From: Allorhodopirellula heiligendammensis
GTDB lineage: Bacteria > Planctomycetota > Planctomycetia > Pirellulales > Pirellulaceae
NCBI RefSeq assembly: GCF_007860105.1
Contig: NZ_SJPU01000001.1
Span: 2,625,700-2,689,699 of the forward strand
Direction: 5' to 3'
DNA length: 64,000 nt
Positions 26,625-57,992 of this stretch are shown here, in pieces. How positions within the stretch are numbered: the stretch's first letter is position 1; each line of letters opens with the position of its first letter. The notes beneath the pieces are model-generated. The model saw only the letters and a list, made by a program, of their open reading frames with translations. It searched no databases and was not told the origin of the DNA. Both the position numbers and the translations under genes were made by a program.

Positions 26625-26670
26625 CCGCGATCGCGTTTCGCACCATCCCAGTACCCACAGGAAACTGAAC

Positions 26671-28077: not shown

Positions 28078-29427
28078 TTATCGAACCCCGCCCCCGCTCG
28101 CTTCATCAGCCATCTTCTGCTGTTGCTTGCCGAGACGCCAGGCAATCACTGTCCAAAGTATCGTCACGGGGATCGCGATCAGGTTCAGCGATGTCAGGCT
28201 GACACCAAACGCTCGCAGGCCGCCAAATGCTTGCCCGGATACTGCGTCACCGCCGCGCAGGACTACGGTGTCGATAAAGTTTTTCGACTTGTACTTGTCT
28301 TCACGGCTGACGACGGTGAACAGCACTTCTCGCGTCGGCACGGTCACCCCATAGCCGATGGCGCGGGTCGCAATCATCACAATAACCAGCACACCAAGTG
28401 ATTGGCTGATCGCCAGTGACGCGAAGCCACCTAGATAGACAATGGGTAAGATCGCCAAGGCGATACTGACTCCCCACCTGCGCAAAATCGCACTGGCACA
28501 AAATACCTGGATCGATAGCGTCAGAATTTGTGTCGACAGATCAATGTAGGCGAATAGCTGAGTTCGCTCCTGTTTGGATTCAAACGCAGCAGAAACAATT
28601 TCAGCTTGCTGGAAATACAGCTGAGTACCGCACGTTTGCACCAGCACCAAGAACGCGCAGATAAGTAATAAGTATGGTGACCGGCCAACATGAGTGATGC
28701 CGGCCAGTAGACCACCTGCGGTGTCGGGGCGATCGGGCGGCGCGATGCGCGCATCGTCGACGGACCGTTGGTGGTCACGCAGGCGTGTCGACTGTCTTTC
28801 TAACCGCCAGGCGCAGTACAAACCGCATTCGATCATGAGGATGGGTAGCAGCAACAACGAGCTCGTCGACAACTGCGTTGCCAATTGACTGGTAATCAAC
28901 GAACCGGTGATTGCGCCGGCTGTACCACCGGCAGCGATGATCCCAAAAAGCCGCTTGCCCTGGCTGCTGGTAAATAAGTCCGCCAACACGCTCCAGAACA
29001 CACTGGTAGCAAACAGGGCGAAGACGTTGACCCAGAGGAAAAACGCTCGCGCTGTCCAGACCTGCAGTGCCGCAGAGGGCGATCGCATCAGAATGAAAAA
29101 AATAAGCAACGCAGCGGCAAAAACATGATAGACCACGCGGACGAGCCACCGCCTCGGCAACCGGGATACTAAGTAGGAGTAAGCAGGCACCGCCGCCAGC
29201 ATGATGGCAAATGTCGCCAACATCAGCCACTGCAGAGTCGTCGTTGACCCCACACTGCCCATCGTCTCGCGCACCGGGCGGACGATCAGATATCCGAGTA
29301 AAATGAAGAAAAACCAGGCCGTGGCCCACGCCACCGCCCATTGCTCCTCGTCCCTGATTCGCGACCACCAGCGTTCAGATGCATTGCCGTCATGTGGTGG
29401 CAATGACTCGGAGCGAACAGCTGGCAT
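28078..29427 (-). CDS. ATP/ADP-translocase-like (NTT) or MFS membrane transporter
   Basis: A 449-residue protein with about twelve transmembrane helices. The N-terminal Gly-Tyr-Leu-Ile-Val-Arg-Pro-Val-Arg-Glu-Thr-Met-Gly and Phe-Trp-Ser-Val-Leu-Ala-Asp-Leu-Phe blocks resemble the Npt1/TlcA nucleotide transporter family better than typical MFS, though the two folds are related and short family members like this one in free-living bacteria have no known substrate. The interhelical Gly-Lys-Arg-Leu-Phe-Gly-Ile-Ile-Ala-Ala-Gly-Gly-Thr-Ala-Gly matches that family. ATG 29427 is preferred over 29469 because a promoter-like sequence ends right before it. Convergent with the halogenase-like gene; could export a product of the neighbourhood, which is speculation. 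Confidence 0.65.
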   Translation of the reverse strand: MPAVRSESLPPHDGNASERWWSRIRDEEQWAVAWATAWFFFILLGYLIVRPVRETMGSVGSTTTLQWLMLATFAIMLAAVPAYSYLVSRLPRRWLVRVVYHVFAAALLIFFILMRSPSAALQVWTARAFFLWVNVFALFATSVFWSVLADLFTSSQGKRLFGIIAAGGTAGAITGSLITSQLATQLSTSSLLLLPILMIECGLYCAWRLERQSTRLRDHQRSVDDARIAPPDRPDTAGGLLAGITHVGRSPYLLLICAFLVLVQTCGTQLYFQQAEIVSAAFESKQERTQLFAYIDLSTQILTLSIQVFCASAILRRWGVSIALAILPIVYLGGFASLAISQSLGVLVIVMIATRAIGYGVTVPTREVLFTVVSREDKYKSKNFIDTVVLRGGDAVSGQAFGGLRAFGVSLTSLNLIAIPVTILWTVIAWRLGKQQQKMADEASGGGVR

Positions 29428-29433
29428 GGTTTT

Positions 29434-29463
29434 ATTACTCGTCCCAAAGGTAGCGGATGTCAA
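29434..29463 (-). promoter_or_regulatory. Candidate promoter of the NTT-like transporter gene
   Basis: A perfect TTGACA (29463-29458) is followed after 18 bases by AGTAAT (29439-29434, 4/6 to consensus), and only 6 bases then precede the ATG at 29427. If used, the mRNA would start at or very near the ATG. Confidence 0.4.
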
Positions 29464-30116
29464 CAACACCTTCGATCATCCGGTGCCACGATACCGAAAG
29501 TCAGCCAGACATTCGACTACCTGCCCACGCTGACGAAGCCCGTGACACGCCGCTGACCGAATCGACCTGGGTGACGCAAGAGTAAGCTGAATACCATGAG
29601 GCACCGGTCAACGTCGCGGGCCAGTTCGCTCACGCGTCACGGCGCACTCAACCAACAGCCCCTTGGTCAGTTCCACTACATGCATATCGGTTGCCGCCGC
29701 AGACACGAAAGCAACAGGGCTACAAAAGCAATAATTTTGTACAACTTTGATTTTTTCTTGTGGGTGGTAGTGGCGCAGTTCCGATTGGGGGTTGACCGTT
29801 GGGAAGTGACAGTAGTCGAACTCAACTCCTGCAGGACAACTAAGTCAGTAAATTGGCGCATAAGCGTACAGTAAAGGGACACTATTTCACGCTGGCTATC
29901 GACAACTCAGTTGCTAGCGAGTATTTTGGCTGCGACCGATGTGACGAATACGCCTAACTGGTTCTTATCTTGCCGTTTTCTACGCTCCGTTCGTCTTGGC
30001 CGCTTCCCTCTAAGTGAGCGGCATGATGGGTGAGAGTTGGCCGGCGCTGTCCCGCAATACGGTATCTTGTATGTCGCACGACGGTCCACTTTTCATTCAC
30101 ACTCGGGAATTTGGTT
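29464..30116. other. Intergenic region upstream of the FeeM-like gene
   Basis: About 650 bases with no credible gene between divergent genes. There is a local AT-rich patch (about 29728-29762, including the palindrome TTGTACAA) in otherwise GC-rich DNA, the kind of site that often carries regulatory sequence. A TTGACC near 29797 lacks a matching -10 box. No repeat or RNA gene recognised. Confidence 0.4.
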
Positions 30117-30971
30117 ATGCAGAACCTGGAAGACAGGACTCTTGTTCGCGGCGTCGCCACTAAACTTAGGGCATTCATCAGGAGTGCGGACGGAAAAAAG
30201 GGCAGGACGCCGGCTGATTTAGGCGTCCGGCGTCTTCCCTCAACTGAATCAAATGCGTCGCGACGCATTGACGATCCTGAGATCGAGTATCGCCTCGCAT
30301 GCTCACGCTCCGACTTTCTCGGCGCGTTCGAGCTTCTCCAAACACGGTATCTGGAAGCGGGTCTCGCTGACTGCACCGCGGGAGCATGTCGCATTCGGAT
30401 GATGCCCTATCACCGCTGGGAGCAATCCCAGGTCTTTGTCGCCGAGGCTCAAGAACGCATTGTCGGAACTGTTACCCTCGTCCGCGACGGCAGGTATGAC
30501 CTGCCAATTTGCGATAATTATGAACGAGAAATATTAGCTGCCCGCGAAATTGGACGGGTTGGCGAAATCACTTCGCTGGCGGTTGACCCAGTGCATCCCA
30601 AGCCCGCAGAGGTCTTTGGGCAGTTGACCCGGATACTCACCTTCTATGCCCGATATCATGGGATGGATTTTCTTGCGGCCACGGTCCATCCTCGCCATGC
30701 AAAATTTTATCAGCATGCCATGGGCTTCCAGGTGATTGGCGACGAAGTGCAATGTCGCCAGGTATGTGGCAATCCCGGGGTGGCAGTCCTTGGCGCCGTG
30801 AACGATCGATCCAAGTATCGCCGGCGTTGGCAAGACTACTATTTCGACGGAGTATTTCCTCGCAGCGAAATGCACCCCCGCCCGATCACCGCAGACGAGC
30901 ATAGCTATTGCCATTCGCTCGTCGACCAAGCGAATTTGTATGCGAAATCAACAGCTGGCATGGGTGTATAG
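30117..30971 (+). CDS. FeeM-type N-acyl amino acid synthase (GNAT fold)
   Basis: A 284-residue protein of the FeeM/autoinducer-synthase-like acyltransferase group, which joins a fatty acyl chain carried on acyl carrier protein to an amino acid. Matches include Ile-Glu-Tyr-Arg-Leu-Ala near 60, Ile-Val-Gly-Thr-Val-Thr-Leu-Val-Arg-Asp near 118-127, Asp-Leu-Pro-Ile-Cys with a following Glu-Ile-Leu-Ala-Ala-Arg-Glu-Ile-Gly-Arg-Val-Gly-Glu-Ile-Thr-Ser-Leu-Ala-Val block (about 144-162), and a C-terminal half with His-Pro-Arg-His-Ala-Lys-Phe-Tyr. These are the conserved elements of the family. ATG 30117 follows GGGA; the frame opens earlier but without family character. A methyltransferase gene follows 84 bases later. 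Planctomycetes are known producers of N-acyl dehydrotyrosines (stieleriacines), so such a product is conceivable. Confidence 0.75.
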   Translation: MQNLEDRTLVRGVATKLRAFIRSADGKKGRTPADLGVRRLPSTESNASRRIDDPEIEYRLACSRSDFLGAFELLQTRYLEAGLADCTAGACRIRMMPYHRWEQSQVFVAEAQERIVGTVTLVRDGRYDLPICDNYEREILAAREIGRVGEITSLAVDPVHPKPAEVFGQLTRILTFYARYHGMDFLAATVHPRHAKFYQHAMGFQVIGDEVQCRQVCGNPGVAVLGAVNDRSKYRRRWQDYYFDGVFPRSEMHPRPITADEHSYCHSLVDQANLYAKSTAGMGV

Positions 30972-31882: not shown

Positions 31883-32761
31883 TTAGCTGCGTTTCCGTCG
31901 ACGGAACCCGATCCCACCAGCCACTACGATACCCGCGAATGCTAGCATTGTTCCCGGTTCTGGGACAGCCGCAACACTGGCCCGTGAAATTTGGCTGATT
32001 GTTATTTGATGATTTACATTCGCTTCCAAGAATACTGTGCCCGTGATCAGGTCATCGAGGTCCTGGCTAACACTGTCATTTCCCGAAAGTGCCACGTTCA
32101 ACAGGTTAGAGTCATTCAAAGAGATGCCACCACTATTAACTTGAATGGTTAAAGAAGTGCCTGCCGTAGCGATGCGGTTCGCCGGGAGCCCTAATGAGCT
32201 GACAGTTGCCTCAACGTTCGCATCAAAAATGATTCGGTAGTAACCACTTTGTGCCACAGTGAAATCAAACAGGGCGAAACCCGTAGACGAACCGATTGAG
32301 TTGCCAAGGCTAGAGTCAACAGCCTCAACTTCTGAAACAGAAGACAGGTTCAACCCTCCAGGACTAACTAGCGAACCAGTCGCATTGGTGTCGGACCTAG
32401 AGAACGCTGTTGCAAGTCCCGCGACGGGAGTCGTTGTAGCGAACGTATTCTCGCCTGGAGGTATTACGCCACCCGTTTGCAGGAATGCTTGTGCTGCATC
32501 TGGAGGCGACAATGGATCGTTAGAGGAGTCGGCAAGTTGAAGTTGGGAAAAACCTGTCAGATTGACGGTGTTGCGCAAACCCAGCGTAGTGGTCGTGATA
32601 TTCACGCCTGGGAGGCCGATATCAGTGAATGTACCGCCAGCGGTATCCGAACGCTGGACCCGCATATTCGACGTGGTAATCAGAGCACTTCCATAGACAC
32701 CTGCTTGTGCAGGAACCGCAAACATCGCTAGCGCAGCGACAAATAAAAACTTACGTAACAT
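31883..32761 (-). CDS. PEP-CTERM sorting-domain secreted protein
   Basis: A 292-residue secreted protein: Sec signal peptide (about 1-20, ending Ala-Gln-Ala), a Ser/Thr/Asn/Gly-rich beta-type body, and a C-terminal sorting signal starting Val-Pro-Glu-Pro-Gly-Thr at about 266, a hydrophobic helix, and Arg-Arg-Arg-Lys-Arg at the end. PEP-CTERM proteins are processed by an exosortase, whose gene is not in this window, and are usually linked to exopolysaccharide or biofilm production. The body has no recognised domain. AGGAAA precedes the ATG at 32761 by a normal distance. It lies 63 bases downstream of a small secreted-protein gene on the same strand. Confidence 0.9.
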   Translation of the reverse strand: MLRKFLFVAALAMFAVPAQAGVYGSALITTSNMRVQRSDTAGGTFTDIGLPGVNITTTTLGLRNTVNLTGFSQLQLADSSNDPLSPPDAAQAFLQTGGVIPPGENTFATTTPVAGLATAFSRSDTNATGSLVSPGGLNLSSVSEVEAVDSSLGNSIGSSTGFALFDFTVAQSGYYRIIFDANVEATVSSLGLPANRIATAGTSLTIQVNSGGISLNDSNLLNVALSGNDSVSQDLDDLITGTVFLEANVNHQITISQISRASVAAVPEPGTMLAFAGIVVAGGIGFRRRKRS

Positions 32762-33853: not shown

Positions 33854-36800
33854 TCACGGTCGATCGATATCCGAATCGCCCTGCGTGATCAGCCATTGAT
33901 GTGGTTCGAGCAACGTCTGGCGATCGATCGAGTTGTCGGTCGCGATGAGCAAATGCCGCGTCGATGGTCGTTTTAGAAATCCATACGATTCAAGCGCCTG
34001 TTCAATTCGATTGTTGATCACGTGCATCGTTACGGCGTCGACACCGACACCCTGACAATGCTCCACCGTTTTGTGGATGGCAGACTGCAGATCTCGAGGG
34101 TCCGTCGAAACCACCAGGTCGACAATGAAGGCGCGGCGATAGTGGTAGGGCGGCGCGGACTCAGCGATCGAGATGACTGCACAAGCAATAAGTTCATCGT
34201 CGATTAAAATTTCTAGTCGGGTGAACGACTGCCCCGGTTGATCGACATATTTCCAGTTCAAGAACGATGCGTCCCGGACGGTTGCACACCCATAGGATCC
34301 GGAAACCTTCTCCCACAACCTGTCATGACGGGCATCATAACGCGTGACTTGGCGAACCGTCGCGTGTACAGATGACGCAGGACTGAGCATTCGACGTGCC
34401 TTGCCGCGCAGGCGCATCCAAGCGGAGGCGGCAGGAATCGCGGCCGGGTGTAGTTTCCCTTTTAGAACCCGCCCTGGATTGATCGCCAGCAAATAGGTCT
34501 GCAGCGGCGCGACGCGTTTCCAGCCCAGATTTTCGAGGATCGCACGCATGTTTTCGGTTTGCCCCAACGAAAGGTTGAATGGCATATCCTCCAACGACTG
34601 AATCACCAGCCGGGTTCCGACCCCGCGGTCGCGGTGTGACTCCAGCACCATCGTTTCAATTAACCAAGCCGTGGTGGACTGTTTACCGCGGATCTCGAAT
34701 CGAACGAGTTGGGCGCCGTGATGTCCGACGATTTTGTCGCCGTCTTGGAACAACCATACTTGCGGATCCACACCTAATCGTTGGGCGGATTCGAGAAACA
34801 TCCATTTCCAACGCGGCATGACGAGGTCCCGAGGACGATCGGGGAATGCCTGGGTGAGGAAGTTGGATAACGCCGGTTCGACGGCCTCGCTGTAACCAAT
34901 AATCTCGGCTACAACCGCTGCGGGAATGCCCTGGACGAGATGCGCGGCTAGGGCACGCAGATGGAGGAAATCGAGCACGCGAGGCGATTGGTTGAGTTGC
35001 AGCCGATCTCGAATTCGATTGGCGAACTCTACGGCCCCTAGCGAATCGAGCCCCAGATCAACAAGCGGCTGGGTTGCCGATGGGTCATGAGTCGATTTCC
35101 GTCCCAGTGTGCGTGATAGATCTTTCGTAAGAAGCGCGACCAGCCTTTCAGTCCGATCTTCGTCGGTGCCCGCCAGTTGTGAGATCCAAGTGTCGGGGCC
35201 CTCTGCGCGGTTCGATGTCCCGGCTTGTACGTTTGAATCGGTATTTGAGGTATCACCAAACCGGATCGCAGCCATCAAGGTCGTGGCAATGGCTCGGATC
35301 GTTGGATTTGCCAGTAGATGCGTCGAGCTGCCGACTCCCGTTTGCTTGCGTAGCCCGATTACGAGCTCTGCCGACGTCAACGAATCCATGCCGAGATCGA
35401 ATAGCTGGCCATCGAGCGCGATCGACTGCGGATCCTTGATACGCAGCAAGCGTGCGACTTCTGTTTTCAGCAGGTCTGCTAGCCGCATGTGCCGCTCGTT
35501 TTCCGATAAACCCTGCAGCTGTTCAATCCAGGGATAACCGGAATCGGTCGATTCCTTTTTTATCTCGCCACGGGAGCTCGTTGCCTGGCACGAATCAGCC
35601 ACTTGCCCTAATTCAGCAAACAACGGTTGGGGACGACGTGACTCTAGAACAGGACGAAAACGAGCCCAGTCAATATCAGCGACGACGGCTTGAGTTTCAT
35701 GTTGCGCGAGTAGGTCGGCGACTTGCTGCAAGGCCACGTTTGCATCTAAACCATCGTTTCCGATTCGGGATAGTTCAGCAAGCGAGGCTCTGTCGGCCAT
35801 GCCCGCACCGTGCCATGGTCCGAAGTTAATGGACAGCGCGGGCTTGCCAATGCCGCGACGGTAGTGGGCGAATGCATCGAGAAACGAGTTGGCCGCGGCG
35901 TACAAACTACGTTCCGCTGAACCCCAGACCGCAGCGATCGAGGAAATGCAAACAAAGAATTGCAGCGGTTGCTGGTCAAAAGCATTGTGCAATCGCCATG
36001 TTCCGTTGACCTTTGCCGCCAGCAGGCTTTCGACATCGGCATAGCTGGTATCCGCGATTGGCTTCCGCAAGTCGACACCAGCGGCATGCACAATTCCAAT
36101 TAATGGCTGGCCGGAAGTCGCGATCCGGCAAGCATCGATCCCCGTGGATGTTGATATGTCGGCCGCAACAATCGATACCTGCACACCGCTTTGACGAAGT
36201 CGCGCGATGGCCGTTTGGGCTGCCGCTGAGGGGGTCTTCGATCGGCTGGACAGCAGTAAATGCCGGGCACCCTGCTCGGCCAGCCAATTGGCAACCTCAA
36301 GTCCGATACCGCCCAGGCCTCCCGTGATGAGCACACATCCTTGATCGAGCTGTAAGGCCGACGCGACGTCGCCATTGGGCAAGGTTGGTACGGCGTTGCG
36401 GGGACGGAGCCGAGGCACGAACCGGTGCTCGGCGCGCAAAACAATCTGGTCGTCGGCGCACGGGAATCGGATCTCATCGACCAATCGATTGATTTGCTCC
36501 TTCCACTCCAACGCATCCAGATCGACACTCCCGCCCCACCACGAGCTGTGCTCGAGGACGGCAACGCGCGCAAATCCCCATAGCGGCGAGGAACTGAGTC
36601 GGAGAGCCGATGCATCTGCGGCGTTGACGCAGATCGCATTTCGACTGGCCATCCAAACACAGCGTGGCGGGAGTTGGGTATTGCCGATGGCCGCGACGAC
36701 TTGCGAGAGTTGGAATACGGAGTTGGTGCTAAGTGAATATGGACTCGGCGTCTCGTCAGAGATGTCGGTCGGTGGCGAATCTGCATAAACGATTCTTTCC

Positions 36801-39800
36801 AAGGTGCCGCGATGTTCTTGGATCAACGCGGACAACGCTTGCTGCGACAAGCATACGACAAGTTCTGTGCTGGCGTTGACCTCAAGGCTGTCGAGGGGGC
36901 CAGCACCGAGGGGGCCAGGAACGGAGGAAACATCTTGGTGCGGGACTGCTACGACTGCCGGTATGCAGCGTAAATCACACGTCGTGAGCGCGGCGGCAAC
37001 CTCTAGGGCCGCTGCAGCATGATCCGCCAAGACCAACCACGTGCCTGTCTCTTTGTCGCTCGGTGTCAGCTTCCGCGGTAGTGCTTGCCAATCGAGCTGG
37101 TAGGTCAGACTCGTCGCATTTCGAGATGTACTCGTTTCACCTTGCGAAATTGGATCAGCGAAACACGCCGTTTGGTCACCATCGTGACGTGGTCCAGCTA
37201 GATTCCCGTTTTCGAGCTCTTCGAGCCACATTCGTTGTGGATCAAATTGGTAGCCCGGTGTTGCAACGCGGCGTCGCGAATAGGGCATATCCAAACCCGC
37301 CCAATCGACATCCAGGCCGTCGACGTACAATCGACCGAGGCTATCCAGTAAGGTCGACCAGTCGTCGGCGCCGCGCCGTGCACTCGGCATCCATCTCGCT
37401 TCAACGTCAGGCAAACACTCACGTCCCATGCCCAACATCACCGGGTGAGGTCCGAGTTCGACGTAATGGGTGACATTCTCGGCGTGGAGAGTATTCATCG
37501 CCTCGACAAATCGGACGGGGTTGCGTGCTTGGTGTAACCAATATTCCGGCTTCGACATTTCATCGGTTATGAGCTGGCCTGTCGCCGAGCTGACGATTGG
37601 CGTTCGCGGTGTCCCCAACGAGAGTCCACGCAGCACGTCTGCAAATTCATCTAGCATCGGTTCCATCAGGGCGGAATGAAATGCATGTGAAACCGACAAA
37701 GGCGTGGTTCTGACTCCGTTTGCGTTGAGTTCCTCGAGGGTTTGGTTGACCGCATCGACCGTGCCCGAGATTACGGTTTGCATAGGCCCATTCATCGCGG
37801 CAATCGAGATTCGTTCACCTTTCCCGGTGATCGCTTGCTGCGTGTGTTCGAAATCGAGACCGATCGACGCCATCGTGCCGCCAGCGGGCAAGGCCTGCAT
37901 GAGCCTGCCCCGAGCGACCACCAAGTGCAACGCGTCCTGCAGCGAGCAGCCACCGGCAACACAGTACGCTGCCACCTCACCGATGCTATGTCCCAGCATG
38001 ACATCGGCTTCGATGCCCCAGGACTTCCAGAGCCTCCACAGGGAATACTGGATTGCAAACAATGCAGGCTGAGTATTTCCGGTTTGATGAATGCAGTGCT
38101 CGCGATCTGCGGCATTACCCGAAAAGATGACCTCATGCAGCGGTTTGTTCAGATGCGAATCAAGACCGTTGGCGCATTCATCAAAGGCGGCACGAAACAC
38201 AGGACTCTGTTGATAGAGGTTGTGCATCATGGTCGGATATTGAGCGCCTTGCCCCGTAAATAGAAACGCGATTCGAGGATTGACAATCGTATCGGCGTCC
38301 GTGAGCTGCATGCCGTCGTGAACTTGCAACCCCTCGGTGATGCGTTGGAGTTGTTCTGCCGCATCATGCTCATTTGAAATAACGATCGCCGCTCGAACGG
38401 GATGATGTTTGCGACCGACGTTCGCGCTATAGCAGACGTCAGCAATCCTCTCTCTATCGAGCGTTGTCAGAGAATCAGTCCAGGCAGGTGCTTGCCGGCG
38501 CAACGCGGCAGTGGATGTTGCGGAGAGCGTCAGAAGGTGCGCAGACCGGTCGGCGTTAGCGTCCTCGCGTGCCGGTACCGAATCAGGCTCCTCCAAAATC
38601 ACATGAACGTTAGACCCACCGACGCCGAACGAGTTCACACCCGCCCGCCGCGGCAGGTCAATTTTCACTCCCGCGCGTGATGCTGAGATGGATTCCCACT
38701 GGCGAGACTGCCGCTGGATGTCGAAGGGCAGATCACCAAAGGGTATCTGCGGATTAGGGGCATCGGACGTCAAACTCGGCACCAACGTCCGGTGATGCAA
38801 CTGCAGAGCGGTTTTTATCAATCCCATCAAGCCAGCCCCGGCCTCAAGATGGCCGACGTTGGGCTTGATCGATCCGATCGTACACTGGTGACGGACCTGC
38901 AGTTCGGACTGCCAAAGCTGGGGGGCGCAATAGGCCATTTCCAGACCACGGACCTCGATCGGATCGCCCAACTCCGTGCCGGTCCCATGCGTTTCGATGT
39001 AACCGATGGTGCGCGGATCGACACCTGCAGCGACAATGGCTCGCCGCGTTGCGATCGCTTGGGCAGTCGGGTTGGGCGCGGTGAATCCGACTGAACCAGC
39101 TCCTGAGCTGATGCCGGTGCCCTTGATCACCGCATAAACTCGATCGCCGCGGCGCTGGGCCTCAGCGAGTGGCCGCAACACCACGGAAACGGCACCTTCC
39201 CCCATCACGGTTCCATCGGCATCGTCACCGAAGGGCACGCATCGACCCGAAGGCGACAAAATGCCGAGCCGGCCGAGCTGGACCAGCCGGTTCGGGTCGA
39301 CGATCAAATTCACGCCGCTGACCACGGCGGTCGAGCAATCGCCATCGGCGAGCGACCGGCACGCGTAGTGCAGCGCCGTCGCGGAGGAGGAACACGCCGT
39401 ATCGATTGATAGACTCGGCCCGTTGCATCCCAGAACCTGCGAAAGGCGGTTGGCCAAACTGAATCCTTCCCAACAGCGATAGAGGCTCCCCGTCTGGGTC
39501 GCGACGGCATTGGCAAACCGACCGTAGCTGGAATACATCACGCCGACGAAGACACCCGTTGCCACATCAAATTGATCGCCCAGGCCGCCTGCATCTTCCA
39601 ACGCATGCCAAGCGTTCTCCAGCACGATTCGCAACTGCGGATCCATATATTCAGCTTCACGTGGCGACACGCCGAAGAATTCCGCGTCAAAATTAGCGGC
39701 ACCTGCCACCAATCCCGCAAAATGATCTCTTTCATCCTGTAGCATGCCCACGGACGAATCACGCTGGACCGGTACGCGTACGACCGCACTGCGTCCCTCG

Positions 39801-42800
39801 GTCAGCATCGACCAGAGCTCCGTGGCGGTATCCGCACCAGCACACCGAACTCCGATCCCAACAATGGCGATGTCGCCGATCTCCGCAGCACTTGGGCGAG
39901 GTTCATTGATCGCGGGCCTGCCCGCGAGCTGGCGTGTGGCCTGACCGGACGCGACCTCGGTAATCGCGGCGATGATTTCGGAAACGCTGCGGTGCTCAAA
40001 TAACAGCGTTTTGGGTAGCCAAGGGTACTGTTTACTCAACGCGACCGTGATCTCCACAATCCGCAGCGAATCACAGCCGAGGGCCTCCAGTCGGTCGATG
40101 TGAGCGATCTCGCCAGTGGACCGCCGGAGAGCCTTGGCGAACGTGGTGGTGACCTGCTCGACAATCTCGTCGAGATTTGCGGGGGTGGCCTCAGCGGTGG
40201 TGAGCTCGCCACCGCAGGCGATCTCCAACTGTGCGTAGGTCGAAAGCGATTGGGCGATGCGTTCAATTTGACGCTCTCGATCCCGGGTCGAAAGTGTCGG
40301 CGATTGATTGGCGGTGGGTGACGCGTCCGGTTTGGGATCGGCCGTGGGGGTGTCTGCCTGTGCGGCTTGAAAGTGGAAACTGGAAAGCTCCTCCGCATCC
40401 GTGCCGCATTCCCAAACACCCCCGGCGTCCTCGGGCGGTTGCGCGTCGGCGACGAGCCCCAGAAAGGATCGAGCGGGTGTGTTTCGATCGGTTGGAACAT
40501 GCCGCCAGTTCACCAACGAGAGACCCCGGTCGCAGGCAATTTTGCCGAGGTTGGCTGCCATGTGGTGCTCGACGCCCCGCCCCAGCACACGGCAACTCAA
40601 CAGGAACGTGTCAACGAGCAGAGCATCATCCTGCGCGGCCCCGATCAAGAACCCGACCAACCCATAGTCGCCAAACCGATCGCGCACCCGCACCGTTTGA
40701 CAGACAACGTTCGGGTCGGCCATCAACGCCTTCAATTCGGCTTCACTGCGCCGCAGGGTGGTGAAGTTGAATTGATTGGTGCGCAGGGTGAGTTGCGAGG
40801 CGCGCGCCAGGTCCGCATCCGATAGCGTTTGAATATCGATGTTCAGATCGAGCGAATCGATGAACTCTTGGAAATTCCCCGCACTCTGCAACGAGTCCTG
40901 GCGAGAGAACTCCTCGCGGTATAACTGCGTCCGCCGTTTGTCTTCCGCGGTCGCGTCTCGGGCCTCCAGCTCCCAAAAATGATCCAGTAGCTTGGTGGCC
41001 GATGCGGCGTCCGTCGGCCACTGGATCGTCAGCACACTCGGACACCCGCTGCGCACCTCGGCGCACTCCACCGGGTTATCGTCGAGGAAGATAAAACTAT
41101 CCAAACCGAGATTCAAACGCTCAGCTAAGGCTTGAATGTTCTGACTCTTCGGCAACCAATTCACGGCGGCAGCCACAATTTGATCGCGTGGGATTCCAAA
41201 ATCGGAACGTTGGTCAAACACCGACCACACATCATGCTCTTCGTTCTTGCTGCATAAACACAACAGCATGCCACTCTCTGCCAATTGCAGGAGTCGCCGA
41301 TGCAATTGGTGATGCACTTCGTCAAATCGAACTCCCTCCGCGCCGACTTCGCCCACGACGCCGCCCCACAACGTATTATCGCAATCCAGCACGATGACTT
41401 TCTTGGTCGGTGCGTTCTGGCGATGGACGAAGCGAGCGATCAGTGCCGAGAGGAAGAAGTAGTAAGCATCCTGATAGGGAATGTGCGCGATCTCGTCGCG
41501 CAACTCGTCGAAAATATTTTGCGTGCCATCGATCTCAAAGAGGGCGTGACAATCACGCGTCTCGATCAAGGTCAGCCCCGGTATCTCACTCAGCGAATCT
41601 CGCAGCTGATGTTCGATTTCGTGCAGCAGCGACTCGAGCAGGTAGCCGCTAACGGTCCCTGGGCAGATCAGCAGCAACGTTGGACCGGCGGCGAAGGAGC
41701 GGTGTGTCTTGATGGCGTCGATGTACTCCTGGGCAGCCGCACGTAACCGGCGTTCCACGTCCCCAGCGTCCGCGTCATCCAAATTCCACTCGCGCAACCA
41801 ATCGCTGACGCGGATCAGGATCACGGCCCCGTCGGAGCTGCGCGACATGAGACTAGCTGGATCGAGGCACTGTTGGAGCACCTGCGCATAGGGCGCGAAC
41901 TCGATACCGAGGTGCAGATCCAATTCGGCCGACCAACGCTGCAAGCCATTGCCAATGGGATCGAGCGTGAACGTCGAGCAGAGCACGACGCGTCGGTCCG
42001 GTTCCGCTGTGACCTGCCGGATCGCCGGTTCGGTGAAGGGAAACGAATCGAGCACCTCCACAGGCGTGCGATCATCGGGACTCGCCACGGTGTTGATAAT
42101 GCGGGCCGCGGCGACCGCTGTGGGGATCGCCCCCATCGCACTGGTCGGCGTATCGTTCCAACTGGTGCGCAGTTTCGGGGGCCGAGCGATCAGGAAATGT
42201 ACCTTCGGATGCTCCCGAGCGGCCGTCTTGACGAGCCCTTCCACGGCCATCTTCACGCCGATGTAGTCAGCGAATCCCGCCGGACACTCATCCACAAACG
42301 AGGAAGAAATCGCCACAACCGCTCCTGAGACTTCGGCAATGCAGGACAAGAAACTCGCCAGCGGAATCTTCGACAGGGCGAGATTTTCGGCGATGTAAGA
42401 AAACGAGTCTGCTTCGGTACTACCTGCGACACCACCGAAGCGAGGTGCTGCGCAGGCGTTCAAAAACAGCAGATCAAGGCGACCGTCTGCGGCGAGAATC
42501 TCAGACTTGGTGCGCTCGCACCACTGGGCGTCGCCGACGTCGCCGGCGACGATCACGGCCGCGCCACCGGCAGCATCGATCTGCTCGACGAGTGCCCTCG
42601 TCGATTCATTGGGATGCCTGCAGGCGAGATAGACCTTGCACTTTGCCGCCCCCAGAGCCGCGGCCAATTCGGCCCCTAAACCACGGCTGGCGCCACACAC
42701 CAACGCCACTTTGCTCGCCAGTTCACGCGCCGGCAGTGTCAACTCACCGACATATCCGGCGGGGTCCGGCTCCGCCTGCGGAAACCGGACGTAACTCTGG

Positions 42801-43555
42801 ACCCGAGCCGTGGCAATCAACTCGCCGCTGGCCGAAGCGATCTCCAACTCCGTTTCGAGCAAACGGAAATGCGGTTCGTAGTCCCGGAACGTCAATCGAT
42901 ACGCCACTTCATCGCCACAATCCGCAGCCGCCGCCGCAAAATCAATGCTCAGACGCGTGAACAGCGAGGACAGCCCAGGGGCTTTCATGCCGACGATGAA
43001 ACTGCATAGCCCGAGTACTTTTTCCTGGGTTGTTGTCAGCGACGATTCGGCCGCGGCGTGGTGGCCAAATCGATGTCGACCGTAATGACACGCACCCGCC
43101 TCGAAATCGTAGGGCTGCCAGGCCACGGGAGCGTCGTCCCCAGAACTTGGATCGCCCGCTTGCATCGCCTCCTCCATCCAGGCAACCACTGCAGCAGTCG
43201 ACGGTACCGTGAGTCCATTCCTATACGTGGCCGTCACCGTCATTCGCGTCGCTTGCCCGTCGCTGACCGTCACGACCGTCGACGTCTCGTTTTCCGACGA
43301 GCTCTCGACCGGGTAGTTCCGATCTGGTCGGACCTCGCCGCGAAACTCGATATCAAGCCCCTCGATTTCGCGACCGCGAGCGAGTTCCGAAGGAAGGGAG
43401 CGGAGCGCCTCGATCGTCGTCAGCGCGCCGTGAGCGATCGTGCCCCCGAACGATGACTTCTTGGCCGCATCAGGATTAACGTGTATCGGATTGCGATCGC
43501 CTGACCACTGGGCAAATCGGTTGACATCATCTTGGGTGATGTGCATCGTATTCAT
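33854..43555 (-). CDS. Modular type I polyketide synthase with MaoC, SDR, FkbH and GNAT domains
   Basis: A 3,233-residue synthase. Domain order: MaoC-like hydratase (1-115; Asp20, His25) with a second hotdog-like segment (150-265); SDR (280-500; Gly-Ala-Ser-Arg-Gly-Leu-Gly 288-294, Tyr431-x3-Lys435); FkbH glyceryl-transferase/phosphatase (520-1040; Asp724-Cys-Asp726-Asn-Thr-Leu-Trp); ACP1 (Ser1163); KS (1227-1655; Cys1388, His1523, His1569); AT (1762-2060; Ser1857, His-Ala-Phe-His 1957-1960, malonyl type); KR (2110-2580; Ser2538/2539, Tyr2552, Asn2556, Trp2544 suggesting A-type); tandem ACPs (Ser2725, Ser2838); GNAT (2885-3030; Arg-Gly-Val-Gly 2977-2980) and a second GNAT-like half (3065-3210). 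All catalytic residues of KS/AT/KR are present. No DH-ER or thioesterase. Predicted: glyceryl starter plus one malonyl extension, ketoreduced, then acyl transfer. Confidence 0.9.
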   Translation of the reverse strand: MNTMHITQDDVNRFAQWSGDRNPIHVNPDAAKKSSFGGTIAHGALTTIEALRSLPSELARGREIEGLDIEFRGEVRPDRNYPVESSSENETSTVVTVSDGQATRMTVTATYRNGLTVPSTAAVVAWMEEAMQAGDPSSGDDAPVAWQPYDFEAGACHYGRHRFGHHAAAESSLTTTQEKVLGLCSFIVGMKAPGLSSLFTRLSIDFAAAAADCGDEVAYRLTFRDYEPHFRLLETELEIASASGELIATARVQSYVRFPQAEPDPAGYVGELTLPARELASKVALVCGASRGLGAELAAALGAAKCKVYLACRHPNESTRALVEQIDAAGGAAVIVAGDVGDAQWCERTKSEILAADGRLDLLFLNACAAPRFGGVAGSTEADSFSYIAENLALSKIPLASFLSCIAEVSGAVVAISSSFVDECPAGFADYIGVKMAVEGLVKTAAREHPKVHFLIARPPKLRTSWNDTPTSAMGAIPTAVAAARIINTVASPDDRTPVEVLDSFPFTEPAIRQVTAEPDRRVVLCSTFTLDPIGNGLQRWSAELDLHLGIEFAPYAQVLQQCLDPASLMSRSSDGAVILIRVSDWLREWNLDDADAGDVERRLRAAAQEYIDAIKTHRSFAAGPTLLLICPGTVSGYLLESLLHEIEHQLRDSLSEIPGLTLIETRDCHALFEIDGTQNIFDELRDEIAHIPYQDAYYFFLSALIARFVHRQNAPTKKVIVLDCDNTLWGGVVGEVGAEGVRFDEVHHQLHRRLLQLAESGMLLCLCSKNEEHDVWSVFDQRSDFGIPRDQIVAAAVNWLPKSQNIQALAERLNLGLDSFIFLDDNPVECAEVRSGCPSVLTIQWPTDAASATKLLDHFWELEARDATAEDKRRTQLYREEFSRQDSLQSAGNFQEFIDSLDLNIDIQTLSDADLARASQLTLRTNQFNFTTLRRSEAELKALMADPNVVCQTVRVRDRFGDYGLVGFLIGAAQDDALLVDTFLLSCRVLGRGVEHHMAANLGKIACDRGLSLVNWRHVPTDRNTPARSFLGLVADAQPPEDAGGVWECGTDAEELSSFHFQAAQADTPTADPKPDASPTANQSPTLSTRDRERQIERIAQSLSTYAQLEIACGGELTTAEATPANLDEIVEQVTTTFAKALRRSTGEIAHIDRLEALGCDSLRIVEITVALSKQYPWLPKTLLFEHRSVSEIIAAITEVASGQATRQLAGRPAINEPRPSAAEIGDIAIVGIGVRCAGADTATELWSMLTEGRSAVVRVPVQRDSSVGMLQDERDHFAGLVAGAANFDAEFFGVSPREAEYMDPQLRIVLENAWHALEDAGGLGDQFDVATGVFVGVMYSSYGRFANAVATQTGSLYRCWEGFSLANRLSQVLGCNGPSLSIDTACSSSATALHYACRSLADGDCSTAVVSGVNLIVDPNRLVQLGRLGILSPSGRCVPFGDDADGTVMGEGAVSVVLRPLAEAQRRGDRVYAVIKGTGISSGAGSVGFTAPNPTAQAIATRRAIVAAGVDPRTIGYIETHGTGTELGDPIEVRGLEMAYCAPQLWQSELQVRHQCTIGSIKPNVGHLEAGAGLMGLIKTALQLHHRTLVPSLTSDAPNPQIPFGDLPFDIQRQSRQWESISASRAGVKIDLPRRAGVNSFGVGGSNVHVILEEPDSVPAREDANADRSAHLLTLSATSTAALRRQAPAWTDSLTTLDRERIADVCYSANVGRKHHPVRAAIVISNEHDAAEQLQRITEGLQVHDGMQLTDADTIVNPRIAFLFTGQGAQYPTMMHNLYQQSPVFRAAFDECANGLDSHLNKPLHEVIFSGNAADREHCIHQTGNTQPALFAIQYSLWRLWKSWGIEADVMLGHSIGEVAAYCVAGGCSLQDALHLVVARGRLMQALPAGGTMASIGLDFEHTQQAITGKGERISIAAMNGPMQTVISGTVDAVNQTLEELNANGVRTTPLSVSHAFHSALMEPMLDEFADVLRGLSLGTPRTPIVSSATGQLITDEMSKPEYWLHQARNPVRFVEAMNTLHAENVTHYVELGPHPVMLGMGRECLPDVEARWMPSARRGADDWSTLLDSLGRLYVDGLDVDWAGLDMPYSRRRVATPGYQFDPQRMWLEELENGNLAGPRHDGDQTACFADPISQGETSTSRNATSLTYQLDWQALPRKLTPSDKETGTWLVLADHAAAALEVAAALTTCDLRCIPAVVAVPHQDVSSVPGPLGAGPLDSLEVNASTELVVCLSQQALSALIQEHRGTLERIVYADSPPTDISDETPSPYSLSTNSVFQLSQVVAAIGNTQLPPRCVWMASRNAICVNAADASALRLSSSPLWGFARVAVLEHSSWWGGSVDLDALEWKEQINRLVDEIRFPCADDQIVLRAEHRFVPRLRPRNAVPTLPNGDVASALQLDQGCVLITGGLGGIGLEVANWLAEQGARHLLLSSRSKTPSAAAQTAIARLRQSGVQVSIVAADISTSTGIDACRIATSGQPLIGIVHAAGVDLRKPIADTSYADVESLLAAKVNGTWRLHNAFDQQPLQFFVCISSIAAVWGSAERSLYAAANSFLDAFAHYRRGIGKPALSINFGPWHGAGMADRASLAELSRIGNDGLDANVALQQVADLLAQHETQAVVADIDWARFRPVLESRRPQPLFAELGQVADSCQATSSRGEIKKESTDSGYPWIEQLQGLSENERHMRLADLLKTEVARLLRIKDPQSIALDGQLFDLGMDSLTSAELVIGLRKQTGVGSSTHLLANPTIRAIATTLMAAIRFGDTSNTDSNVQAGTSNRAEGPDTWISQLAGTDEDRTERLVALLTKDLSRTLGRKSTHDPSATQPLVDLGLDSLGAVEFANRIRDRLQLNQSPRVLDFLHLRALAAHLVQGIPAAVVAEIIGYSEAVEPALSNFLTQAFPDRPRDLVMPRWKWMFLESAQRLGVDPQVWLFQDGDKIVGHHGAQLVRFEIRGKQSTTAWLIETMVLESHRDRGVGTRLVIQSLEDMPFNLSLGQTENMRAILENLGWKRVAPLQTYLLAINPGRVLKGKLHPAAIPAASAWMRLRGKARRMLSPASSVHATVRQVTRYDARHDRLWEKVSGSYGCATVRDASFLNWKYVDQPGQSFTRLEILIDDELIACAVISIAESAPPYHYRRAFIVDLVVSTDPRDLQSAIHKTVEHCQGVGVDAVTMHVINNRIEQALESYGFLKRPSTRHLLIATDNSIDRQTLLEPHQWLITQGDSDIDRP

Positions 43556-44610: not shown

Positions 44611-45041
44611 AGGGTGAAGAGTTTATCGGCGATGAGGTGCGAGGAAGCACTTTAACACGCAACTCCGTGGGACGCCGAATCGCTTTAGGAATCTCAATTA
44701 CCCAATACAAACGGCGGATCACATCATCCCGCCGAACTAACTTAAAGTTTATGGACGGGAATCGGTGGTATTGCAAGTTCTGGCTGTAAAGGGTAGTATT
44801 GCCCCACTATGTGTGCGTCTAGGGGTCCTGAGTGCGTTTTATGGTTGATCAATGAACGGATGGGAGTTTCCATCTTAGATTGGCCTGCCGTGCGCGTGGC
44901 CGAATGCCTCTGGCTGCTCGGCGCTTTGCTATGATTTTCGCGAGGCCTAGTCCCGCTCCACATTCAATATTCCGGCCTGCACTACGCCCGCTCATCTCCT
45001 CCTGGCATCAATTCTCCTCGCCTTCACAGACCCGACATCGC
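44611..45041. other. Intergenic region before the G8-domain gene
   Basis: About 430 bases between the pseudogene remnant and the next ATG. A short minus-strand open stretch (about 44640-44760) has protein-like composition but matches nothing I know. A TATGAT near 44929 lacks a good -35 partner. The G8 reading frame is open back to 44880 but that part is Arg/Pro-rich and not signal-like. Confidence 0.4.
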
Positions 45042-48000
45042 ATGAATTTACGAATACCACGATCCAACCGCCGACTGAGGCTCGAATCTCTTGAGTCCCG
45101 TCGTTTGCTCGCCAATGATCTCGCCGTGCCGGATTTTGGCACCCTGGCAATGCCGAGTTTCAGTCCAGCCATCGTCTCGGCGACGTCGACCAGCGAAATG
45201 GTGGAGGGCGAAATGACGATGCAGAGCATGGACATGGGACATAGCATGTTCGAGATCACGCCCGATGCGGTGGTCACGATGCATGACAACATTCCTCGCT
45301 TTGGTGCCAACCCCACATTCATTTCGATTCGCGACGGAAATTGGTCGGACCCGTCGATATGGCAGGGTGGTCAAGTCCCTGGTGCCAATGCGATCGTCTC
45401 GATCCCCGCCGGCCGGTTGGTAACCTATGACATCGATTCAACGATGCGGCTCGACGCCATCGAAGTGAGCGGCGAGCTGAAGTTTGCGACCGACTCCCAC
45501 ACGTCGGTGTGGCTGAACGAACTCATGGTAATGCCTGCTGGCACGCTGACGATCGGTACTGCCGTGGCCCCCGTCAACGCAAGCGTGACAGCCGAGGTCG
45601 TATTTACTGATACACCGCAAGCCGATGGACATCACTTCAAGACGGGAACGGTCGAGCATCCCGGGATCGATCCGTCGCAGTGGGGCAATGGCTTGATCGT
45701 ATTGGGCAAGGCCGAAATGCACGGTCATACTCTGCAGAACACGTTTGTTCGTGCCGCGGGCGACGTGCTGGCCGGCTCTACCACCATCGAAGCGCAAGGC
45801 TATGTGGGAGATTGGCAGGTGGGCGACAGGATTGTCATCCCTGATACGCGTCAAACTAATCCGGTTGACACACCCAACTACTACACATACGAGTCCCAGG
45901 AAGAGACCGCGACCATCGTGGCCGTAACGGCCAACTCCATTGTCGTGGATCACCCGCTCCAGTTTGATCATGTTGGGCCCCGCGATGCCGACGGCACGCC
46001 GACGCAAACAACCGCTGGCGTCACGCTTGCCCCGCATATCGCGAATTTCGGCCGTAATGTTGTCCTGCGAAGCGAGAATCCCGATGGCGTTCGCGGGCAC
46101 GTTGCCTTCGTGGGTGACGCCAGCAAAGACATTCGTTATGTGGCCTATCAGGATCTCGGCCGTACCGATGTCGGCCCAATCGACAACACGACGTACGATG
46201 TCAATGGCCAGGTCACGCACATCGGGACCAACCAGATCGCTCGGTACAGTGACCATAACCATCATCTCAGCGGACCGATGGGAGGTATTCCCCTCGACGC
46301 TGCCCACGCGGATACGAGTATTCGCTACCAATCCATCGGCATCGGCAACTCAATCGACGGAGCCCTGAAGTGGGGCACCACGATCCACGCCTCCCACTTT
46401 GGACTCACGGCTGACTCCGTGTATCACGACGTTAAAGGCGCAGCGGTCGCGACCGAAGACGGCAGCGAGTACGGCAACACCATCAGTGGCAATTTTGTCG
46501 TCGGCGTCCACGATGGCGAAACCGGTTTCAACGGCTTGGGTGAAAACCTCAGTGATCGCGGTGACCAAGGCGATGGCTTCTGGTTTGCCGGGCCGATGAA
46601 TTCGGTCACCGACAACGTTGTCGCCAACGCAGTGCGAAACGGATTCGTTGTGTTCCCGGATAACATCCCGAACACACGTAACAGCAGCAAGTACCGTGAG
46701 GTCCGCGTACCACTATTTGCCGGTGCAAACATGCACGATGAGTCGCAAACCCGCCTCATCAACGTGCTGGCCGAACCGTTCGACGATTTCAGCGGCAATG
46801 AAATCTACGGAGCGACGACCGCAGCCGTCCAGCTCTGGTCAGTGGGTAACCGCAGTCTCTACCCTGACGCGGCCGGACGAAACACTCTCATCGACACGAC
46901 CGTCTGGCACGTCACGGGTGTCGGTATCCGATTCTATTACGCCGATGATTACGTTGTCGATGGCTGGCTGCAACGGGGCGACCCCGCGATGATCAGCGCT
47001 CGTGCCAGCCTCGGTGGTCCATCCAACCCTGCTGTCGGCGCAGCAATTATTCATGCGGGTAGTCGCGCGGCGACATCAATCGTTCGTCATGCCGAAGTCC
47101 AGAACATGACGATTGGGTATTTCAATCGCGGACGCGGCTCGGCAGATGACATTCTCCTGGAAGACAGCCATTTTGACAATGATCAAAATATTCTTGTCAT
47201 CCCCTGGGGCCAGAACCCTGCCGATGGAGTGCGTGATTTCTTAATGAGCAATGTGACGTTTGGCAATAGCCTACGTCCGGGCTCCCAAAACGATATTACG
47301 CTGCGCTGGACTCCCGCGTACCTTGACAACGCTGTCCTACCCGAGTCAACGGTCTTCCGCGACTTCGACGGCGTCGACGGGCTTGACCTCTCAATCTACT
47401 ACCCCGAGCAGGCACCCGATACGATTCCGGAGTTTCAAGGCGAGCCGATTAGCCCTGGCGGCAATCTGACGAATGCAGAGAGTTTTGCGCAGTACGGTGT
47501 GGCGGCGAACGGTTTTGTCGCACCCAGTCGTGAGATTGATGGTGACAACGGGGAAACGGCTCTCACTCGCGGTCGAGCGATGGGAATCGATGGCTTGGTG
47601 TTTGAGCAAAACCCGCTGGAGCAGCCACTGCTCTTCATGAATGTCCGCGTGGAGTTTTCCAAGCCGGTACTCTACTACACCGTCGTCGGTAACCCTGCTG
47701 GCGTTACGGGAGTTGAAGTCAACGTGGACGGGCAAACCCTGAACCTGAACAAGCTAACTGGCAAAGCCGAACTCAGCTTTCTACCGAATCTGGGCGACTT
47801 CGAAATCCAAGGACAAATTATCACTACGACCGGATCAGGTGCCTCCAGTGAACTGCAACTCCAACTCCCGTTCCCGATCTTTGGCGTTGTGCCACCGAAC
47901 AATCGCCCCGTGCTCCAACCCGTTGCCGCACAAGCTCTCGTGGCGAACTCGGTTTTCCGACTCGACCTCGCAGCGACTGACGCGGACGGCGACATCGTTG

Positions 48001-48911
48001 AATATTCGTCTGACAATCTACCCACCGGTGCGACGCTCAATAAAGACACCGGCGAGTTTGTCTGGCAACCGTCGAACGATCAATCTGGCTCGCGGACGAT
48101 TAACTTCTTTGCCACCGACAGCCGCAACGGCCAAGCGTCGATGCGTGTTCGCTTCGACGTCGTCTTTGACGCGAGTCCGTCGCCACTGGTGGGCAACTGG
48201 GAATTCAACACTGGCTCGACAAACGTTTCGGATGGATCAACCTACGCGTTCGAAGCCACGATGATTGGCACCCCGAAGGCATCGCCGAATTATCTAGAGT
48301 TTCAAGGACGTTGGAGTGGCCAACGCTTGGAAATCGAGCCCACTGCAGCCCACCGACCGACCACCGCGATCACACTGCGAGCGGTTGTCCAGCCAACCAC
48401 CAGAAATAACAGCTTTGAACCGCTCATTCGATACGAATCGGGGAGTGTCGAAGCCTATTCATTGACCGTTAAGGACGGTGGGTCGATGAGTGACGAACGA
48501 GGGTCGCTGCAGGGCTACTGGTTTACAGTTCGCACTGAGGCGGGAACGCAGCGGGTGTCGGCCAGAATTACCGATTGGGACATCCGGGGATTCGACGAAG
48601 TCGTCGGCGTGTTCGATGGCTCTCGTGACGGCGGCCGGCTCGACCTCTACGTCAACGGCGCTCTTGCTGATTCAAAGACCAACGTGGGCGTGACCATCGT
48701 CTATCCAACATTCGGTGGGCAACGTGTCACCCTCGGTGGCAGCGGCGATATTGGACGGACGTTTGGAGGACGCATGGCGGAGGTTCAAATATCGACGGTT
48801 CCACAATCTCCGTCCGACCTCGCTTTGACTCCGTGGAAACGAAAAGACGATGCGTTGTTGGCATACCTGGCCACACAGGATTTGGCTGGGTTGGACACCT
48901 CGCTCAACTGA
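45042..48911 (+). CDS. Secreted G8-domain / cadherin-like / LamG protein
   Basis: A 1,289-residue surface or secreted protein. The N-terminus, Arg-rich followed by Leu-Glu-Ser-Leu-Glu-Ser-Arg-Arg-Leu-Leu-Ala, is the planctomycete-type export signal. A Met-rich stretch (about 53-80: seven or more Met, two His) precedes a G8 domain (about 98-190) starting Asp-Gly-Asn-Trp-Ser-Asp-Pro-Ser-Ile-Trp. About 200-800 is a parallel-beta-helix-like region, as in CEMIP/TMEM2-type hyaluronan-binding or -cleaving proteins. About 953-1045 is an Ig/cadherin-like putative domain, and about 1048-1240 a LamG/concanavalin-like domain. Binding or cleaving an extracellular polysaccharide is the likely job. ATG 45042 is chosen because it directly precedes the signal motif. 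Confidence 0.82.
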   Translation: MNLRIPRSNRRLRLESLESRRLLANDLAVPDFGTLAMPSFSPAIVSATSTSEMVEGEMTMQSMDMGHSMFEITPDAVVTMHDNIPRFGANPTFISIRDGNWSDPSIWQGGQVPGANAIVSIPAGRLVTYDIDSTMRLDAIEVSGELKFATDSHTSVWLNELMVMPAGTLTIGTAVAPVNASVTAEVVFTDTPQADGHHFKTGTVEHPGIDPSQWGNGLIVLGKAEMHGHTLQNTFVRAAGDVLAGSTTIEAQGYVGDWQVGDRIVIPDTRQTNPVDTPNYYTYESQEETATIVAVTANSIVVDHPLQFDHVGPRDADGTPTQTTAGVTLAPHIANFGRNVVLRSENPDGVRGHVAFVGDASKDIRYVAYQDLGRTDVGPIDNTTYDVNGQVTHIGTNQIARYSDHNHHLSGPMGGIPLDAAHADTSIRYQSIGIGNSIDGALKWGTTIHASHFGLTADSVYHDVKGAAVATEDGSEYGNTISGNFVVGVHDGETGFNGLGENLSDRGDQGDGFWFAGPMNSVTDNVVANAVRNGFVVFPDNIPNTRNSSKYREVRVPLFAGANMHDESQTRLINVLAEPFDDFSGNEIYGATTAAVQLWSVGNRSLYPDAAGRNTLIDTTVWHVTGVGIRFYYADDYVVDGWLQRGDPAMISARASLGGPSNPAVGAAIIHAGSRAATSIVRHAEVQNMTIGYFNRGRGSADDILLEDSHFDNDQNILVIPWGQNPADGVRDFLMSNVTFGNSLRPGSQNDITLRWTPAYLDNAVLPESTVFRDFDGVDGLDLSIYYPEQAPDTIPEFQGEPISPGGNLTNAESFAQYGVAANGFVAPSREIDGDNGETALTRGRAMGIDGLVFEQNPLEQPLLFMNVRVEFSKPVLYYTVVGNPAGVTGVEVNVDGQTLNLNKLTGKAELSFLPNLGDFEIQGQIITTTGSGASSELQLQLPFPIFGVVPPNNRPVLQPVAAQALVANSVFRLDLAATDADGDIVEYSSDNLPTGATLNKDTGEFVWQPSNDQSGSRTINFFATDSRNGQASMRVRFDVVFDASPSPLVGNWEFNTGSTNVSDGSTYAFEATMIGTPKASPNYLEFQGRWSGQRLEIEPTAAHRPTTAITLRAVVQPTTRNNSFEPLIRYESGSVEAYSLTVKDGGSMSDERGSLQGYWFTVRTEAGTQRVSARITDWDIRGFDEVVGVFDGSRDGGRLDLYVNGALADSKTNVGVTIVYPTFGGQRVTLGGSGDIGRTFGGRMAEVQISTVPQSPSDLALTPWKRKDDALLAYLATQDLAGLDTSLN

Positions 48912-54024: not shown

Positions 54025-54025
54025 G

Positions 54026-55198: not shown

Positions 55199-55342
55199 CG
55201 GATTTCCCACGCGAATCTAGCTGCCACCTTAACATCGTCGATCACGCCTGCGCTCTTTTCCAAAGAAGTTTGTTGACGCACAAATTGCTGTCTAGCACTC
55301 TGGAGTGTGTTCGAGCATCTGAAACGCTTACTTGAGTATGCC

Positions 55343-56734: not shown

Positions 56735-56770
56735 CTTGGCTGGGCGACATTACTGTCGCTTGGTAAGTCC

Positions 56771-57934: not shown

Positions 57935-57992
57935 ACGAACAGGGGCTCAAGAGGTGGAATACGAAGAGAATTTGGATCCCGGGGTCAATGAG

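Follow-up and report, generated by a model that had tools for sequence, protein, structure and literature searches.

We analysed a giant polyketide synthase (PKS) gene of the planctomycete Allorhodopirellula heiligendammensis (genome, 7.18 Mb), which lies in a 64,000-nucleotide stretch of contig NZ_SJPU01000001.1 (2625700-2689699), referred to here as the window. A preliminary description, made from the letters of the window, had placed at this position an open reading frame (ORF) for a single protein of 3,233 residues, and its coordinates, strand and ATG start were confirmed exactly (Table 1). Searches against Pfam and NCBIfam recognized a MaoC domain (residues 3-90), a short-chain dehydrogenase/reductase (SDR, 282-451), FkbH (716-1033), a ketosynthase (KS, 1228-1595), an acyltransferase (AT, 1764-2081) and a ketoreductase (KR, 2406-2582), together with three PP-binding stretches corresponding to acyl carrier proteins (ACPs) and a GCN5-related N-acetyltransferase (GNAT, 2915-2991). 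This is the order that had been described, with a correction at each end of the protein given below. KS, AT and ACP are found in a single chain with their catalytic residues present, as in type I cis-AT PKSs, and the claim of a one-module synthase is supported. No thioesterase family was found among the 17 Pfam families matching the protein at E <= 0.01, so that a GNAT domain does stand where a thioesterase might have been expected.

Table 1. Features of the PKS gene and its surroundings. Coordinates are those of the window; aa, residues of the PKS; rows, aligned family proteins holding the region.
Feature	Coordinates	Strand	Remarks
Whole PKS gene	33854-43555	-	3,233 aa, ATG start; ORF call and Pfam/NCBIfam
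MaoC dehydratase domain (aa 1-130)	43166-43555	-	GDRNPIH motif; PF01575, 6.7e-15
Stretch aa 131-277	42725-43165	-	conserved in 8 rows; possibly second half of a double hotdog
SDR domain (aa 278-515)	42011-42724	-	PF00106; YxxxK at 431
FkbH N-terminal extension (aa 520-712)	41420-41998	-	assigned by position; matched in 7/7 complete relatives
FkbH phosphatase/glyceryltransferase domain (aa 713-1040)	40436-41419	-	TIGR01686
ACP1, loading carrier protein	39941-40204	-	PP-binding; serine kept in 9/9 rows
KS	38576-39880	-	PF00109/PF02801
AT	37301-38284	-	GHSIG and HAFH; PF00698
KR	35636-37108	-	structural part 36356-37108 (by position), catalytic part 35636-36355; PF08659, 7.9e-62
ACP2	35261-35518	-	PF00550 at aa 2695-2759; absent from 3/10 rows
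ACP3	34946-35203	-	PP-binding; DSL serine in 10/10 rows
Tandem-GNAT N-acyltransferase domain (aa 2874-3233)	33857-34936	-	ends DSDIDRP; fold predicted
Polysaccharide-deacetylase-fold protein	51788-52774	-	proposed partner; ATG 52774 used as start
Polysaccharide run	52774-63868	-	glycosyltransferases 52774, 54029, 56774, 58057, 60697, 62528; Wzy_C ligase/polymerase 59372
G8/CEMIP beta-helix protein	44880-48908	+	1343 aa; upstream of PKS
684-aa protein	49134-51185		between PKS and polysaccharide genes; no Pfam/NCBIfam match at E <= 0.001
FeeM-type N-acyl amino acid synthase	30030-30968	+	downstream of PKS, other strand, next to methyltransferase
Major facilitator superfamily (MFS) exporter	28081-29469
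FAD enzyme	26587-27903		best curated match CmlS (chloramphenicol halogenase), 226.2 bits, cut-off 900
PEP-CTERM protein	31886-32761		close to EDSAP-1 family, 90.3 bits, cut-off 100

The active-site residues claimed for KS, AT, KR and ACP were all found: the protein contains DTACSS, HGTG, NVGH, GHSIG, HAFH, YAAAN, DCDNT and three GxDSL serines, and these are kept in relatives that share roughly 24 to 65% identity with the window PKS, domain by domain. Residues were counted over ten aligned family proteins, using for each region only the rows that hold it. As a candidate known family we considered NF045894 (PKS_plus_SDR), which was set aside since the score of 1288.8 bits lies below the curated cut-off of 1740; none of 297 genomes of the class exceeds that cut-off. 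The PKS gives the sole match to the FkbH model TIGR01686 in its genome, which has twelve matching places for the KS N-terminal family.

In the loading part, FkbH scored 295.6 bits against a TIGR01686 cut-off of 146.65, in agreement with the FkbH loading part of the preliminary description. DCDNT is kept in 8/8 rows, and SCR[VT][LM]GRG in all ten proteins reaching the motif (L055 included, as read in the sequence); the Asp of DxDNT and the SCR cysteine are residues with a role in FkbH enzymes. By analogy with its family, the domain may use 1,3-bisphosphoglycerate. N-terminal extensions of the kind preceding it have been described (PMC12304814, in excerpt). The MaoC Asp and His are kept in 7/7 rows, a count that omits the Rhodopirellula baltica protein, whose MaoC part lies in two frames, and two truncated rows; the SDR YxxxK is kept in 8/8. 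Between the two domains, residues 131-277 matched nothing in Pfam or the PDB below E 0.1, and the hotdog is thus demonstrated only for the N-terminal part. Aligning this stretch to the MaoC half with hhalign returned a probability of 0.2 per cent (E 0.33), and one PDB match (E 1.3) and a Pfam match in one of 8 members (E 0.15) were both taken as chance; we therefore assign the stretch to no family.

The preliminary description had proposed a start from a glyceryl-type unit. Loading by FkbH agrees with this, but an unmodified glyceryl starter is probably not what the module uses. MaoC and SDR accompany FkbH elsewhere too, even where each is encoded by its own gene, and in this family both retain their catalytic residues, so that a conversion of the loaded unit to a lactyl-type one is probably the better reading. 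Bryostatin provides an analogy for MaoC/SDR processing of an FkbH-loaded unit. An account of a pathway prediction tool, seen in excerpt, assigns D-lactate-ACP to FkbH loaders (PMC7901079), an output that would be accounted for if MaoC dehydrated and SDR reduced the loaded unit. Alternatively, the starter stays glyceryl, with MaoC and SDR idle or acting elsewhere, which would lead to a 3,4,5-trihydroxypentanoyl-type chain. We regard this as doubtful. Tetronate pathways use glyceryl-ACP itself (PMC7489565, PMC4979870, both in excerpt), and the oocydin protein OocJ has a DH-MT-FkbH-ACP part that its authors, in the portion of text available, thought non-functional (PMC4552970); furthermore, an Aquisphaera protein from a polysaccharide locus carries FkbH, ACP and thioesterase without a MaoC or SDR domain. 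Against a glyceryl starter stand the tool's lactate assignment and the conservation of the MaoC and SDR catalytic residues in rows from several phyla. In addition, Streptomyces sp. NBC_01224 encodes MaoC-SDR together with FkbH and ACP in individual genes, interrupted by an MFS gene of opposite orientation. The Aquisphaera protein is the product of an Aquisphaera giovannonii plasmid gene (L075 11950-14961) annotated HAD-IIIC, in an exosortase/polysaccharide locus, and its FkbH part is 53.6% identical to that of the window.

When genomes were searched with the N-terminal 520 residues, ordinary SDRs dominated the results and nothing useful emerged. A plasmid search with residues 1-1040 gave 125 records, 4 of them covering at least 80% of the query. 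In proteins of Ensifer canadensis (WP_203528975.1) and Streptomyces anulatus (WP_326621725.1), MaoC, SDR, FkbH, ACP and KS open genes of 15 kb and 12 kb in the same order (Pfam over the first 2,100 residues; FkbH by BLAST, 46% and 47% identity), and the MaoC Asp and His were read in the Ensifer sequence. The loader is therefore not unique to the window PKS. In a KS tree of 32 rows, the ten family KS grouped as a single clade (100/100), which at the next fork (98/93) was joined only by the first KS of the Ensifer and Streptomyces PKSs, their other KS falling outside; the fork joining these two first KS was weak (80/59). We read this as co-inheritance of the loader with the first KS. Unlike the window PKS, both proteins have three KS in the tree and look trans-AT: no AT was found in the first 2,100 residues scanned. 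A trans-AT system is likely for S. anulatus, because fabD and PfaD genes adjoin, and only presumed for E. canadensis.

In the extension module, the KS Cys-His-His, the AT GHS and HAFH, and the KR Y[AG]AAN are each present in 10/10 rows; HAFH is a mark that we take to indicate a malonyl-type AT. Terminal ACPs number two in 7/10 rows and one in 3/10. A single round of extension is an assumption, and a single KS-AT set can in principle work iteratively. An iterative PKS might place a longer chain, through its C-terminal domain, on a protein N-terminus or a lipid amine, and protein N-myristoyltransferases (NMTs) are among the closest solved folds to that domain; even so, we consider such a product improbable.

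The preliminary description had divided the end of the protein into a GNAT and a GNAT-like unit. This did not hold, as structure prediction gives a single tandem-GNAT domain for the final 360 residues. The predicted structure matches the tandem GNAT fold of NMT and Eis across the whole domain, at 10-12% identity; among Pfam families, only generic GNAT families, and not the NMT family, matched the C-terminal part at E <= 0.01. DSDIDRP lies at most one residue from the protein end in 10/12 proteins, and 12 and 19 residues before it in the other two. In NMT and Eis, which use CoA donors, a C-terminal carboxylate serves as base; the same role was considered here and, given the two longer tails, not assigned. 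With its NMT/Eis-like fold, the end of the PKS looks like a site of acyl transfer rather than hydrolysis, the outcome that had been proposed. PKS GNAT domains have been described as loaders in the excerpted text of one account (PMC7901079), and the domain could be a curacin-type loading decarboxylase, or inactive. We consider this very improbable: it stands C-terminal, after the last ACP, with a predicted NMT/Eis-like fold, 47 columns are invariant over the 13 rows of its alignment, and stand-alone copies occur beside a different acyl-activating set.

With this domain as query, 4 of 60 relatives matched (own genome included), and none of the 12 other genomes of the same genus; in the class, 60 of 397 genomes matched at E <= 0.001, again including its own. 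A profile of the acyltransferase family matched 28 of the 397 at E <= 1e-15. Eight scored 485-520 bits, the next 131.7, and of these eight, six lay in PKS-sized frames and two stood alone. A scan of genome contigs gave seven loci, two of which are the same DNA as G201 and G325, in records titled Pirellulaceae, Acidobacteria, Planctomycetaceae, Nitrospirales, Planctomycetota, Vicinamibacteraceae and Rhodopirellula baltica. Metagenome-assembled genomes make up most of them, and the phylum labels are taken over from the records. Once duplicates are merged, the window has 12 related loci. Seven of these show the full order on one contig (L040, L043, L045, L050, L056, L058 and L059; the terminal ACPs of L045 and L059 were recognized as alignment motifs, not by tblastn). 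In G201 the order is divided between two unjoined contigs (L091 and L046), in L054 and L055 the PKS is cut by contig ends, and L047 and L048 hold the acyltransferase alone. The MaoC part in two reading frames is that of the Rhodopirellula baltica BR-MGV relative (L059 1836-2131).

Polysaccharide genes lie near the PKS in the window and at other family loci. In L043 the PKS stands between a deacetylase-like gene and a methyltransferase with glycosyltransferases, and the window glycosyltransferases at 52774, 54029 and 56774 have counterparts there. The stop of the L043 deacetylase-like gene overlaps a start codon of the PKS (ATGA), an in-frame ATG lying further upstream, and in G201 a gap of 88 bases separates the end of the corresponding frame from the PKS. 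The window counterpart, whose longest ORF begins at GTG 53068 and shares 295 bases with the next gene, has the polysaccharide deacetylase (CE4/PF01522) fold in its predicted structure. Among the 14 genomes with the closest deacetylases, deacetylase and N-acyltransferase were on one contig in 10 and on two contigs in 2, while 2 had no listed match. The co-occurrence of the acyltransferase family with this deacetylase-fold protein in polysaccharide loci narrows the acceptor towards a polysaccharide amino sugar; judging from gene association, the amine most likely belongs to an amino sugar in a polysaccharide that the cell itself makes. We propose, with about an even chance of being right, that the gene encodes a type I PKS of one module, with an N-acyltransferase fused to it, and that the enzyme makes a short hydroxyacyl substituent for polysaccharide at the cell surface.

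Several observations weigh against this proposal. The window deacetylase has no Pfam match at E <= 0.001, its L043 relative scores 15.9 bits where the PF01522 gathering score is 23.1, and its model is weak in places (mean predicted local distance difference test score, 66.8). It lies 8.2 kb from the PKS with a plus-strand gene between, was not found in the PKS stretches of L056, L058 and L059 (21, 12 and 21 kb), and is on another contig in G170 and G235. Most of the distant acyltransferase relatives lack it: of 20 genomes with weaker acyltransferase matches, not all necessarily within the deacetylase search sample, only two (G120 and G272) are among the 14. The proposed action of MaoC on a glyceryl thioester is an analogy. 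Finally, the plus-strand FeeM gene and a methyltransferase downstream also fit a small molecule. The same enzyme might use another acceptor, its GNAT end releasing a small diffusible acyl amino acid or acyl amine with the polysaccharide genes as mere neighbours, as could be argued from the CmlS-like FAD enzyme that adjoins the PKS with these two genes and from the MFS exporter. We find this unlikely, as the examined stretches of other family loci gave no match (E 1e-6) to FeeM, to the FAD enzyme or to the MFS exporter and only weak ones to the methyltransferase, whereas glycosyltransferases, UDP-GlcNAc 2-epimerase (L046, L048 and L043) and the deacetylase recur, and both strong stand-alone acyltransferase copies are also in polysaccharide loci.

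The domains, residues, predicted folds, family and gene association are what we observed; substrate, product and acceptor are inferred. Under the polysaccharide proposal, FkbH would dephosphorylate 1,3-bisphosphoglycerate and place a D-glyceryl unit on ACP1, as is known for the family. MaoC would dehydrate this unit and SDR reduce the resulting pyruvyl-type unit to lactyl-ACP1. The KS would then take the lactyl unit and add one malonyl unit from the AT, and after reduction of the beta-keto group by the KR, approximately a 3,4-dihydroxypentanoyl group would stand on ACP2/ACP3. The NMT/Eis-like domain is presumed to move the acyl group from carrier protein to an amine, which the deacetylase-fold protein of the same locus may have exposed on an amino sugar, as NodB does for NodA.

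In rhizobia, the NodB deacetylase frees an amino-sugar nitrogen, to which NodA transfers an ACP-bound acyl group; the donor is fatty acyl and the product an oligosaccharide signal. No NodA family was among the Pfam matches of the window PKS; NodA was also missing from the structural matches listed, an absence to which we give no weight. The lactate starters of the bryostatin/difficidin type and the glycerate starter of FR901464 are three-carbon units derived from 1,3-bisphosphoglycerate by FkbH, as proposed here; these systems, compared by description, differ in making macrolide-type or other free products. In Flavobacterium psychrophilum O-antigen, an amino sugar bears a 3,5-dihydroxyhexanoyl group, for which the proposed source is a dedicated ACP pathway in which ketoacyl synthases and a reductase make the dihydroxyacyl group and an acyltransferase attaches it (PMC6519341, in excerpt). 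That system resembles our proposal, but uses separate type II-like genes and a PglD-type acyltransferase, and the accessible part of the text mentions no FkbH (PMC6519341). Searches of open-licence PubMed Central text for the architecture and for bryostatin-starter literature found nothing describing this architecture, in line with the preliminary description, whose author knew of no described system with it. Loader, module and acyltransferase fold are each of known kinds; their combination in one protein and the link to polysaccharide loci were not found described in these searches. If the proposal is correct, polyketide assembly here makes side groups of a structural polysaccharide rather than a free metabolite, joining biosynthetic worlds usually apart, with an NMT/Eis-like fold fused to a PKS as the release step. 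It would also offer a way, open to testing, towards unusual N-acyl sugars of planctomycetes. As a compact enzyme with one module, the PKS would suit studies of how FkbH loads its carrier and of the proposed conversion from glyceryl to lactyl.

Other genes for acyl supply adjoin members of the acyltransferase family elsewhere, which suggests an acyltransferase-deacetylase cassette with exchangeable acyl supply. In G041, G260 and G272, an AMP-ligase and a lactate-racemase-like (PF09861) gene lie beside distant acyltransferase members and the same deacetylase (G041 by Pfam, the others by BLAST). As a general picture, held slightly less firmly than the proposal for the window gene, we envisage a new class of self-contained polyketide N-acylation machine for polysaccharides, in which the cassette may be fed by AMP-ligase and lactate-racemase-like proteins, by AMP-ligase with LuxE/LuxC, or by the PKS. 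This would yield an annotation rule: the acyltransferase family marks amino-sugar N-acylation, and the acyl group is read from the adjoining supply genes.

Pairs of AMP-ligase and lactate-racemase-like genes are at L086 5304-8334, L088 4583-7396 and L089 14014-16820, each sharing its locus with the deacetylase and a distant acyltransferase relative, which hints at sugars with N-lactyl or another 2-hydroxyacyl group. In the polysaccharide loci L047 (6507-12543, by Pfam) and L048 (4043-9975, by BLAST), genes for an Fe-alcohol dehydrogenase, AMP-ligase, LuxE, LuxC and SDR lie beside the stand-alone acyltransferase. The G8/CEMIP protein of the window has a relative of 43% beside the PKS start in G201 (L091 4522-9129).
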